Part shown: piece by piece, positions 54,192 through 60,010 of the stretch | Numbering within the stretch: the first letter of the stretch is position 1 | How the letters are laid out: each line of letters begins with the position of its first letter | Assembly (NCBI GenBank): GCA_947474365.1 | Contig: CANJIU010000030.1 | Location: 1-64,000 of the forward strand | DNA: 64,000 nt | Reading direction: 5' to 3' | DNA from: Opitutia bacterium | Lineage (GTDB): Bacteria; Verrucomicrobiota; Verrucomicrobiia; Opitutales; Opitutaceae | Translations under genes and position numbers: made by a program | The notes under the pieces: generated by a model | Told to the model about the DNA's origin: nothing | What the model saw: only the letters and a program-made list of their open reading frames with translations | Databases searched by the model: none

Positions 54192-54203
54192 GACAGAGGA
54201 ATG

Positions 54204-54233
54204 GAACAGGAAGGACGGAAAGAGCGGCAAGAA
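54204..54233. repeat. Left arm of inverted repeat flanking the GxxExxY gene
   Basis: Thirty purine-rich bases beginning GAACAGGAAGGACGGAAAG on the plus strand; partner of 54644-54673 in inverted orientation with 25 of 30 identities. Its inner end touches the stop codon of the enclosed gene. Confidence 0.75.
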
Positions 54234-54638
54234 TCAAGGCTGGTCTGCGCCCTTTAGCGTCAGACGACGAATGCCCTCTTTGACCGTGACTTCGTGAAAA
54301 TTGATCAGGAGGCCGATTGGCGAATTGAGCAGACGCATGTAGCTCAAGAGTTGAGCCACGTGAATGGGAAGAATTTTTTCCACGGCTTTTGCTTCAATGA
54401 TGAGGCATCGATCGATGTAGAAATCGAGCCGCAAGGGTTCGTCGAAAACCAAATCCTTGTAGGTGATCGGTACGATGAGCTCGCGTTCAAAGGGGATGCC
54501 GCGAAGCAGCAACTCGTGAGCGAGGCATTTCTGATAGATACTTTCCAAGAGCCCCGAGCCTTTGTCCCTGTGAACCTCGATGGCCGCGCCAATCACTTTG
54601 GGCGACCAGCGATCGGCGCGACTGAAATCAGGATGCAT
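54234..54638 (-). CDS. GxxExxY family protein with PD-(D/E)XK-like nuclease motif
   Basis: A 134-aa member of the GxxExxY family, whose biochemical function is not established. The name-giving motif is GLLESIY at residues 29-35. Asp72 in LRLDFYID and Glu82/Lys84 in IIEAK, with the upstream Glu32, fit the PD-(D/E)XK nuclease arrangement; LLINFHEVTVKEGIRRL ends the fold. The ATG at 54638 is preceded by AAGGAAAG, a good ribosome binding site lying partly in the flanking repeat. It has no link to glycan synthesis and seems to have been placed between the transaldolase and the large glycosyltransferase. Confidence 0.88.
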   Translation of the reverse strand: MHPDFSRADRWSPKVIGAAIEVHRDKGSGLLESIYQKCLAHELLLRGIPFERELIVPITYKDLVFDEPLRLDFYIDRCLIIEAKAVEKILPIHVAQLLSYMRLLNSPIGLLINFHEVTVKEGIRRLTLKGADQP

Positions 54639-54643
54639 GGCTT

Positions 54644-54673
54644 TCCTTCCCGCGCCTTCCGCCCTTCCTGTTC
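54644..54673. repeat. Right arm of inverted repeat flanking the GxxExxY gene
   Basis: Inverted partner of 54204-54233. On the minus strand it reads GAACAGGAAGGGCGGAAGG and continues into the ribosome binding site of the enclosed gene. Confidence 0.75.
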
Positions 54674-54775
54674 AATGATTTAATGCCCGTGGCGTGAGCG
54701 AGCAGCCCGGTGGAACGGTTTGAACGGGCAGCGGCAGATTCCGGACGGGCCGCGAGTCTGCCTGCTGCGAAAGGC

Positions 54776-55495
54776 TCAGAGCTTGAACCCCACTTCGGCC
54801 GCGTCTTTGGCGAACATCCGCACGGTGTCGAGGGAGAGTTCGGTCAAATCGTTGCCGAACATCTTTGCCGCCTTGGCGAGGATGTCGTGCGGGACCGTGA
54901 TGATGGCGCATCCGCACTCCTGAGCTTGGAAAATGTTGAGCACCTCACGGGTGCTGGCCCAGAGCAGTTCGGCCTTGGGCTGGGCGTGGAGCAGCGCCCC
55001 GCAGGCGCGCATCATCGGAACGGGATCGACACCGGTGTCGGCAATGCGGCCGGCAAACACCGAGACGACGGACGGCACCGCGGGGTTGAGCGCCTCGGCC
55101 ACGCCGGCGACCTGCCGGAGGGTCAGGAGCGCGGTGACGTTGAGTTTCACGCCCGCGAGACCGAGTTCCTTGATCAGCGGTAGACACGAGTCACCGCGGG
55201 AATTGGTGATCGGGATCTTGGTGTAAACGTTCGCGCCCCAGCTGTTGATCTTCAGCGCCTGCCGCTTCATGTCAACGAGGTCGTCGGTGAAGACCTCCAA
55301 TGAGATCGGCTTGGCGGTGACCGTCTGGAGGACATCCTTGGCGAAGGCCTCGTAGTCCTTGATCCCGGCCTTCTTCATCAGCGAGGGATTGGTCGTCAGG
55401 CCCTTGATGTAGGGCTTGGCGTAAAGATCGAGGATACCCGCCTTGTCGGCGCCGTCAGCGTACAATTGGATCGTGAGATCGTTTAGGGTTGGCAT
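54776..55495 (-). CDS. Transaldolase-family protein
   Basis: A 239-aa class I aldolase of the transaldolase/fructose-6-phosphate aldolase type. IKGLTTNPSLMKKAG (30-44) is the family signature, and Lys93 in YTKIP is the Schiff-base lysine; GVKLNVTALLTLRQV and FAGRIADTGVDP follow. The length fits the short transaldolase subfamily. The ATG at 55495 is chosen because the fold begins there. It sits behind the heptose genes: transaldolase makes sedoheptulose 7-phosphate, the substrate of GmhA, so it could feed the pathway. That link is inferred from position. Confidence 0.87.
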   Translation of the reverse strand: MPTLNDLTIQLYADGADKAGILDLYAKPYIKGLTTNPSLMKKAGIKDYEAFAKDVLQTVTAKPISLEVFTDDLVDMKRQALKINSWGANVYTKIPITNSRGDSCLPLIKELGLAGVKLNVTALLTLRQVAGVAEALNPAVPSVVSVFAGRIADTGVDPVPMMRACGALLHAQPKAELLWASTREVLNIFQAQECGCAIITVPHDILAKAAKMFGNDLTELSLDTVRMFAKDAAEVGFKL

Positions 55496-55550
55496 ACGCA
55501 AAGGAGGTGAAGGAATGGAGGTCGAAGTGAAAGGGTAAAGTGACCCGACA

Positions 55551-56120
55551 TCAGCGCGCGCGCAGGATGGTGGCCGCCGCGGCCGCAAAGGTTTTGACGG
55601 TGAAATCCGGGGCGGAGCGCAGTTCCTCGGCGTAGCCAAAATCGATAAAAACCGTGCGCACCCCGGCGCGTTTGCCGCAATCGATGTCCCGCCAGCGGTC
55701 GCCGACCATCCACGACCGGCCGAGGTCGAGGTCCAAGGCCATGGCGGCGTTGAACAGCATGCCGGGCTCGGGTTTGCGCCGGCGGTCAGGAGGCGCGGAT
55801 TTGTCGAGGCCGGGAGCGTAGCAGACCTCGATGTGTTCAATCTGTGGCACCAGTTTCCTCAGCCGGGCATGCATCGCCTCCACGACCAGCTGCGACTGCG
55901 TGCCACGCCCGACATCGGGCTGGTTCGTGGCGACGACCAAGACAAAGCCGGCGGCGGCGAGTGCGGCGCAGGCGGCGGGCACATCGGGAAACAGGCGGAA
56001 TTCGTCGAGCGACTGCGGGGGGTAGGGTTTGCCGTCGCGGACGACCTGGACGTTCAATGTGCCATCGCGGTCGAGAAAAATTGCCGGCCTAAAGGCGGTC
56101 GATGGCGAGGAGCAGCCCAT
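55551..56120 (-). CDS. gmhB: D-glycero-D-manno-heptose 1,7-bisphosphate 7-phosphatase (HAD family)
   Basis: A 189-aa HAD phosphatase that removes the 7-phosphate to give heptose 1-phosphate. FLDRDGTLN at about 15-23 carries nucleophile Asp17 and acid/base Asp19; VVATNQPDVGRG gives motif II, RRRKPEPGM the motif III lysine, and MVGDRWRDIDCGKRAG motif IV. This is the histidinol-phosphatase-like subfamily of GmhB. It follows gmhA by 45 bases in a cluster with HddA and HddC, which makes the assignment to the GDP-heptose route firm. Cytoplasmic. Confidence 0.9.
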   Translation of the reverse strand: MGCSSPSTAFRPAIFLDRDGTLNVQVVRDGKPYPPQSLDEFRLFPDVPAACAALAAAGFVLVVATNQPDVGRGTQSQLVVEAMHARLRKLVPQIEHIEVCYAPGLDKSAPPDRRRKPEPGMLFNAAMALDLDLGRSWMVGDRWRDIDCGKRAGVRTVFIDFGYAEELRSAPDFTVKTFAAAAATILRAR

Positions 56121-59640: not shown

Positions 59641-59783
59641 TCCGTGGTCGTGAATGACCAAGGCGAAGCTAACCAGCGCGGCGACGCAAGTGAGGTTTTA
59701 AGATGAATAACGAGGAAGCCACGGCATTTGGACGCCTCGGCCGATTGACGATGGGAAAATCGCCAGCACCCGATCGTCTGGTG

Positions 59784-59848
59784 GCCGCGAGCGCCAACGA
59801 GTGGACCGGGAAAACGCAACCGAGCCTCCACTCGCTGGCGCTCGCGGC
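59784..59848. repeat. REP-like palindrome, 22-bp arms
   Basis: Arms 59784-59805 and 59827-59848 match at 21 of 22 positions in inverted orientation, with a 21-base loop. The arms are GC-rich (GCCGCGAGCGCC core). There is no T tract on either side and the position between divergent genes excludes a terminator, so an interspersed REP-type element is more likely. Confidence 0.7.
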
Positions 59849-59906
59849 TACGGGTGAGCGTCAACGTCGAGAAGCGCCCATCGTGTTTCAATCGAGTTGG
59901 AGCGGC

Positions 59907-59936
59907 TTGACCCCACGCCGCCGGAAGGGATTTTAC
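59907..59936 (+). promoter_or_regulatory. Weak promoter candidate upstream of the 939-aa membrane protein
   Basis: TTGACC at 59907-59912 is close to a -35 box; TTTTAC at 59931-59936, 18 bases on, is a poor -10. It lies about 75 bases before the start codon. Confidence 0.2.
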
Positions 59937-60010
59937 CCGATTCGGGCGGTGGATTCAGGGACAGTGAAGCAGCGTGAGGTCAAGCTGCTCCATCGCGGAG
60001 CGAGATTGCG

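Follow-up and report, generated by a model that had tools for sequence, protein, structure and literature searches.

The window, by which we mean the whole 64,000-nucleotide (64-kb) stretch of Opitutia bacterium DNA that was analyzed, contains a compact unit in which one gene for a GxxExxY protein lies between two inverted arms (Table 1). The cassette is real, widespread and matched to the protein that it encodes, and it is very probably mobile, an apparent mobile element of very small size. We consider it moderately probable that these roughly 470 bp form a minimal cassette that moves as DNA, REPIN-like in its organization, with a Cas4-like nuclease that would act on the arms.

Table 1. Features of the GxxExxY cassette and its neighbors (positions in the 64-kb window).
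Feature	Position	Strand	Remarks
GxxExxY gene, 134 aa	54234..54638	-	PF13366/TIGR04256, PD-(D/E)XK nuclease family; D72, E82-x-K84, Q96, Y100
Arm on the gene's 5' side	54646..54676	-	Three repeated units; past three outer bases the minus strand is GAACAGGAAG GGCGGAAG GCGCGGGAAG
Arm on the gene's 3' side	54201..54231	+	Past three outer bases the plus strand is GAACAGGAAG GACGGAAAG AGCGGCAAG
Whole cassette, GAACAGG...CCTGTTC ends	54204..54673	-	Gene-less copies (67-68 bp) at other places in this genome have these ends too
AATG outside one arm	54200..54203	+	Second copy at 54674-54677; probably chance
Downstream neighbor, glycosyltransferase PF00535	50151..54191	-	TTG start at 54191-54189; one border of the orthologous site
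Upstream neighbor, transaldolase PF00923	54776..55513	-	Part of ORF 54776-55840; other border of the orthologous site

A repeat search of the window returned five inverted repeats with a score of at least 17 and arms within about 800 bp of each other, versus 0, 0, 0, 0 and 2 in five shuffles, and the cassette was the sole one whose arms are clearly periodic and enclose a stretch of gene size. Its arms were 31 nt long, 84% complementary and spaced 414 nt apart, and the arm on the gene's 3' side had its best lag at 9 (value 0.59). A preliminary description of this DNA had counted 25 inverted matches in 30 between positions 54204-54233 and 54644-54673, had noted that three of the five mismatches can pair as G-U in the mRNA of the gene, and had placed an AATG outside both arms; recounting by hand gave the same numbers, and both AATG copies are present in the window sequence. 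The same description had remarked on a doubtful start codon in the next gene. Relatives begin at the equivalent site with TTG or GTG, which explains the TTG found here. Two more inverted repeats in the window, at 59781-59851 and 59893-59997, have short loops and had scores of 21 and 19. A known RNA family was rejected, as an Rfam search gave two matches at E<=0.5, both far under the gathering score.

Flanking arms proved to be a general feature of the GxxExxY loci examined, a point on which the preliminary description depended. A sample of 100 genomes from the same bacterial family gave GxxExxY matches in 85, and the window's genome itself has three further GxxExxY genes (33-42% identity), each with its own different arms. 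Arms were scored at 72 loci, a non-random set consisting of four from the window's genome, 30 returned as best matches and 38 picked by hand, with room on the contig, from among the matches listed for these genomes. They exceeded the locus's own 50 shuffles in 66 of the 72, and an arm score of at least 18 was reached at 60 of the 72 loci versus 36 of 1156 control ORFs, these being the other ORFs of the same regions (up to 18 kb). The high-scoring control ORFs include real elements, such as another GxxExxY gene (L072, PF13366), a DUF2513 gene (L075) and REP-like palindromes in L055. Two control ORFs with high inverted-repeat scores were RAYT-like, had no Pfam match and are, by motif, presumably REP-associated transposases.

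A collection-wide scan produced 15 further loci, Planctomycetota and Proteobacteria among them, of which 13 were tested and 11 exceeded 100 shuffles. L197 tied with its shuffles, yet its arms are typical by eye; L200 fell below its shuffles and shows no arms; and L196 exceeded its shuffles but is atypical, with arms that are unclear by eye. The 687 kb of sequence around GxxExxY loci held 173 inverted repeats versus two in a shuffled copy. Among the repeats listed from that scan, the gene-sized ones with periodic arms mostly enclose GxxExxY genes and one encloses an IVP gene (L069, PF05635); the scan also lists the REP-like repeats in L055 and several repeats that enclose no recognized gene. 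It further contained 18 distinct short-loop palindromes with a lag of 7-10 at 0.45 or above, at least three of which, having loops of 9-11 nt, could simply be hairpins of the ordinary kind.

Each GxxExxY arm is built from direct repeats, about three in number and 8-10 bp long, inverted on the opposite side of the gene, as in CACGGAG-gga-CACGGAG-nnn-CACGGAG. Periods were counted on arms that belonged to scored pairs and met limits of length, which left 92 GxxExxY arms and 49 arms of the IVP family considered below; in the GxxExxY arms the best lag was 9 in 49, 10 in 22 and 8 in 16. The repeat unit varies among GxxExxY subfamilies and agrees between both arms of one locus. Arm similarity also tracks protein identity: in a Mantel test over 77 loci, which is conditioned on having arms because low-scoring loci were left out, r was 0.555, with a permutation maximum of 0.166 and 0/2000 permutations reaching the observed value. 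The 77 loci were 66 of the 72 and 11 of the 13 collection-wide loci (L196 and L200 were left out); L013, L048, L059 and L068 were omitted for an arm score below 15, and L024 and L026 as misplaced at contig ends. Arm similarity was 18.7 for the closest protein in another genome versus 7.9 for same-genome paralogues of less than 50% identity (n=32, p=5e-6), which together with the Mantel result indicates that the arms follow the protein lineage and not the host genome. Arms and protein co-diversify. The preliminary account of the layout was incomplete in this respect, as it had missed the co-diversification, the iteron-like direct repeats and the gene-less copies.

The window protein matched PF13366 PDDEXK_3 with 129.5 bits (Pfam cut-off 22) and TIGR04256 GxxExxY with 130.1 bits (NCBIfam cut-off 35). 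The D...E-x-K core of PD-(D/E)XK nucleases is kept across 35 GxxExxY sequences, E82 and K84 being invariant and D72 conserved in at least 90%. G27, G29, E32, E42, N113 and F114 are also invariant in these sequences, and Q96 and Y100 are almost invariant, giving a Q-x3-Y pattern that we take to be that of RecB/Cas4-like nucleases. An AlphaFold2 model of the protein had a pLDDT of 95.7, and its best PDB match in Foldseek was 4ic1 SSO0001 (E 1.1e-3, probability 0.99), which we take to be a Cas4, followed by what are presumably a splicing endonuclease and then lambda exonuclease; with an rmsd near 13 and no match reaching E 1e-3, these matches support the fold class only. Nucleases head the PDB matches of the model; they are mostly DNA-acting, and tRNA-splicing endonucleases are also among them. 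The nuclease-like site D72...E82-x-K84 proposed earlier is supported by its conservation across the 35 sequences and by the nuclease-like fold predicted in the model.

A solved homologue sought by sequence was not found at E<=1, profile searches with Pfam and NCBIfam matched only PDDEXK_3/GxxExxY and no transposase or homing domain, and PADLOC gave no defense-system match at E<=0.01. The gene is under purifying selection: dN/dS could be computed for two orthologue pairs and was 0.08 versus the orthologue in genome G116 and 0.12 in the other pair, synonymous sites being saturated in the third pair. As one part of the whole mobile-cassette explanation, and with the same moderate probability, the window protein would be a small Cas4-like PD-(D/E)XK nuclease whose catalytic activity is predicted from the conserved core and the model.

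The order of the transaldolase and glycosyltransferase genes is conserved in the genus, and the window's site could be read at 25 loci, 22 of which were resolved on both sides. Among these 22 genus members, a GxxExxY gene (PF13366) is present in three (the window genome G000, G116 and G117), a four-helix IVP cassette in one (G119, PF05635) and neither gene in 18, whose gaps of 14-258 bp are too short for either. Some of the short gaps hold gene-less palindromes by eye. Conserved synteny of the GxxExxY gene with its neighbors, against which the preliminary description had set its reading, did not appear: across the genus the two flanking genes keep their synteny and the cassette is mostly absent. 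The three GxxExxY genes at the site are orthologues (74-77% identity) with arms that are still recognizable. Genome G121 has a 72%-identical GxxExxY copy on contig C2 and the glycosyltransferase on C46, on which no GxxExxY gene was among the matches listed. A homing endonuclease element would insert at one conserved target in relatives; here GxxExxY lies in one spacer in G000, G116 and G117 and on another contig in G121. The data show presence and absence at an orthologous site and a related subfamily at another locus. This presence/absence pattern may also reflect cassette loss, since it was compared between species with about 69-85% DNA identity over matched pieces. Neither a movement event nor a strain-level insertion pair was found in this between-species comparison, and the seven plasmid records that matched, considered as a source of strain-level empty sites, all had less than 60% identity.

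Upstream of the GxxExxY arm in G117 and G116 (L139 and L143), remnants of GGGAC-type heptamers were seen by eye, which suggests that the GxxExxY cassette in these genomes was inserted beside or into an older heptamer element.

The arm pattern of the window had 22 matches in the window's genome versus none for a reversed-pattern control. Two of them are the window's own arms; 15 of the other 20 form gene-less palindromes and five do not. One match, C146:1224, had been scored at its neighbor and is counted as a palindrome on the basis of its extracted sequence. These palindromes, of about 68 bp, lie at 11 places on contigs C12, C15, C146, C175 and C190. Contig C146 (L188) alone accounts for seven of these places, several having similar left and different right flanks, and given the similar left flanks on one contig some of the C146 copies may belong to larger duplications. 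Seven opposite-strand pattern pairs of 66-77 bp, on seven contigs, were among the matches listed for G121. BLAST with one gene-less copy (query 801-871) returned many isolated matches ending near both of its ends, and such bounded matches were found, among those listed, in G000, G107, G108, G117, G118 and G121. The flanks of two gene-less copies were too little syntenic for empty sites to be read. A chance origin of the arms is ruled out by the shuffles, the control ORFs and the reversed-pattern control.

The number of arm matches was compared across 27 genus genomes. Those with a GxxExxY homologue of at least 70% identity had 22, 3, 23 and 79 matches, and the 23 genomes lacking such a homologue had 0-36, with a median of 0 (p=0.0013; 0.0035 when the arms of the gene itself are subtracted; 0.0038 when the window's genome is left out), in a test that favors close relatives of the window's cassette since the pattern was taken from its own arms. 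The exceptions were G118 and G107, both draft assemblies, with 36 and 11 arm matches and no homologue of at least 70%. Gene-less copies are commoner where a close gene exists.

The preliminary description had likened the cassette to the hairpin layout of 23S rRNA intervening sequences (IVSs), and this comparison held up in that the four-helix IVP family has an equivalent layout with heptamers. To our knowledge, neither GxxExxY nor IVP proteins have an assigned role. The window's genome has four four-helix IVP genes (TIGR02436) with heptamer arms by eye, and IVP was matched in 51 of 61 genomes of the bacterial family. Arms exceeded their shuffles at 30 of 33 IVP loci, namely the four of the window's genome and 29 returned by the search, several of which are orthologues of one insertion between gyrB and gyrA. 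A lag of 7 was best in 45 of the 49 IVP arms, with a mean lag-7 identity of 0.587 versus 0.24-0.27 at other lags. IVP arms follow the protein as well (Mantel r 0.715, 0/2000, over 29 of the 33 loci, those with a score below 14 or an internal stop being left out). The arm period therefore differs by protein family, with heptamers in IVP and 8-10-mers in GxxExxY. The open-access journal literature that was searched yielded no statement linking IVP to heptamer arms, or GxxExxY to arms of 8-10-mers, in general.

The spacer between gyrB and gyrA, genes that we named by eye from their translated ends, could be resolved at 54 of 55 loci. It held an IVP gene in six (one with an internal stop), a GxxExxY gene in four and other ORFs in four, and measured at most 200 bp in 40. 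An inverted repeat above shuffles was present in 13 of the 26 spacers of 60-200 bp, eight of these having a lag of 7. The IVP gene with heptamer arms that lies here in the window's genome (L035, G000:C8:113653-113961) is also there in five other genomes, and the GxxExxY cassettes are those of L163, L174, L094 and L173 (genomes G040, G007, G052 and G053, respectively). GxxExxY and IVP cassettes thus use two common spacers, the window's site and gyrB-gyrA. At L173 an additional gene-less palindrome lies beside the GxxExxY cassette. Toxin-antitoxin-like small ORFs (HicAB-like and AbrB/PIN-like by eye) occupy the gyrB-gyrA spacers of L167, L169 and L096.

These observations show dispersal of the unit; what we infer is binding and cutting of the arms by the GxxExxY protein, movement at the DNA level and a copying route. 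In the mechanism that we propose, the unit would comprise one nuclease gene with an inverted arm on either side, every arm being made up of about three short direct repeats, and the nuclease would recognize the repeated units in the foldable arms and cut at or near the cassette ends. Copying would then place the unit in intergenic spacers, with no fixed duplication of the target, and the gene-less copies of about 68 bp, which are arms alone, would be mobilized in trans, a division of labor like that of a REPIN-RAYT or MITE-transposase pair. The minimal mobile cassette put forward in the preliminary description is well supported by the generality of the arms in the loci examined, by the absence of the cassette at most syntenic sites and by the gene-less copies; the AATG duplication has to be given up.

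The AATG direct repeats are not found with the orthologues in G116 and G117 (by eye), and flanking repeats showed no excess over 45 loci, where the longest flanking direct match had a mean of 3.33 versus 3.22 (sd 0.12) when flanks were re-paired, with 37 of 200 re-pairings as high. We therefore rejected AATG as a target-site duplication or as a meaningful flank.

An element that acts at the RNA level is, in our judgment, unlikely. Its arms would pair in the transcript as a processed hairpin, as in 23S rRNA IVSs, the protein would bind or trim the RNA, and spread would occur via RNA or rare recombination. In agreement with this, the cassette transcript can fold (z -4.7), as the preliminary description had held, the layout is common to the four-helix family, and the Coxiella IVS combines a 28-bp stem with tandem heptamers ahead of its ORF (PMC4990558). 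A hairpin maintained in the mRNA would, however, be expected to direct transition mismatches between the arms toward G-U pairing on that strand, and the mismatches ran the opposite way in both families, with 42 versus 82 against mRNA G-U pairing in GxxExxY (p=4e-4) and 22 versus 46 in IVP (p=0.005). We accordingly rejected selection for a hairpin of the gene's own mRNA. The strands of the neighbors, callable for 28 of 38 loci, were mixed as well (11 ++, 10 -+, 6 +- and 1 --), and the modeled fold resembles nucleases that are mostly DNA-acting, even if it also resembles tRNA-splicing endonucleases. The mismatch skew against the mRNA, the lack of a direct-repeat excess and the mixed neighbor strands favor a DNA-level, REPIN-like element. 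The skew in both families would give G-U pairs in antisense RNA.

We regard it as quite unlikely that the protein is a passenger, that is, that movement of the arms depends on a different transposase or on recombination by the host and that the gene persists as an addiction, defense or regulatory module. This would fit the lack of a transposase or homing domain in the profile searches of the protein, the toxin-antitoxin-like ORFs that by eye also occur between gyrB and gyrA, and the richness of G118 and G107 in arm matches without a close gene. It is at odds with the co-diversification of arm sequence and protein, with an arm period that differs by protein family and with the greater number of arm matches where a close gene exists, and a defense role drew no PADLOC match. 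It is very improbable that a regulator, either the encoded protein or a host factor, binds the arms and that the gene is a domesticated resident, for although the arms are iteron-like and paired tandem octa- and heptanucleotide sites in Geobacter have been interpreted as those of a global regulator (PMC2700814), the cassette is present or absent at one site among related species, its gene-less copies are a bounded unit of about 70 bp, and two distinct cassette families occur in the two common spacers.

The mobile cassette that we favor has counterparts among known systems and departs from each of them. REPIN-RAYT systems combine small palindromic dispersed repeats with a gene flanked by related inverted repeats, and the ends of the palindromes carry a GTAG or CGTC tag (PMC3733652). 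The window unit is similar in that its dispersed palindromes share their ends with the gene-bearing unit (15 of the 20 further arm matches, at 11 places, and bounded in other genomes). It differs in that its enzyme, for which only PDDEXK_3/GxxExxY matched, belongs to the PD-(D/E)XK family and is not a Y1/HUH transposase, and in its arms, where direct repeats of 8-10 bp occur about three times. The 23S rRNA IVSs with S23/IVP (PF05635, TIGR02436), which are sporadic and have been called selfish, likewise have a small gene inside an inverted-repeat stem, whereas the window unit lies between transaldolase and glycosyltransferase genes and not in rRNA, encodes a PDDEXK_3 protein unrelated to S23/IVP and has a periodicity of 9 bp, not 7 bp. 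Terminal inverted repeats, and gene-less copies beside a gene-bearing copy, are shared with MITEs and IS elements, but the window unit has no transposase match in the profile searches and no excess of target duplications. TAACTGA and other tandem heptamers and octamers have units of 7-8 bp, which in Geobacter are paired on opposite strands, but in the accessible portions of the two papers (PMC4679880, PMC2700814) they are described as regulatory repeats, with no link to a cassette gene; the TAACTGA heptamers, described in PMC4679880, are mentioned in PMC4853749 also.

In the literature searched, the word GxxExxY occurs in two papers, one of which names it as a possible cas4-like neighbor of an RT (PMC8934634). 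IVP ORFs occur in CPR rRNA insertions, some insertions at equivalent sites being ORF-less (PMC11270868), and cas loci, too, can contain IVP genes, frequently together with Cas4 or Cas6 (PMC3936711); the accessible portions of these last two papers contain no link of the IVP or GxxExxY families to such arms. A literature search for repeat strings gave matches confined to two eukaryotic papers. Pairs of gene-bearing and gene-less elements are known, and what is new here, being undescribed in the literature searched, is the enzyme and the structure of the ends.

A wider speculation, to which we give slightly less than even odds, is that GxxExxY and IVP are the gene-bearing, autonomous representatives of two minimal mobile element classes that run in parallel. 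Both classes would have inverted ends that resemble iterons (8-10-mers for GxxExxY, heptamers for IVP), use no known transposase, insert into common intergenic spacers and be accompanied by gene-less palindromes. The 23S rRNA IVSs could then be a special heptamer case, and some heptamer and octamer repeats of other bacteria could be non-autonomous copies. The border repeats, the gene-less copies and the co-diversification of arms and protein give both families a testable function. If this speculation is correct, it would join the 23S rRNA IVSs with scattered tandem-repeat palindromes that have until now been interpreted as regulatory sites, and a Cas4-like nuclease would join the enzymes that may move DNA.

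Two further observations were made in the regions around GxxExxY loci. In L055 (G007:C1), repeated palindromes with TCACGACAAAGCGTGCCCCTCCA and CTCCGCG repeats lie between apparent glycan genes. At L075:1480-1845, a DUF2513 gene is enclosed by inverted AACCGCGAATGAATGCGAAT arms and is possibly a third gene with an equivalent layout.
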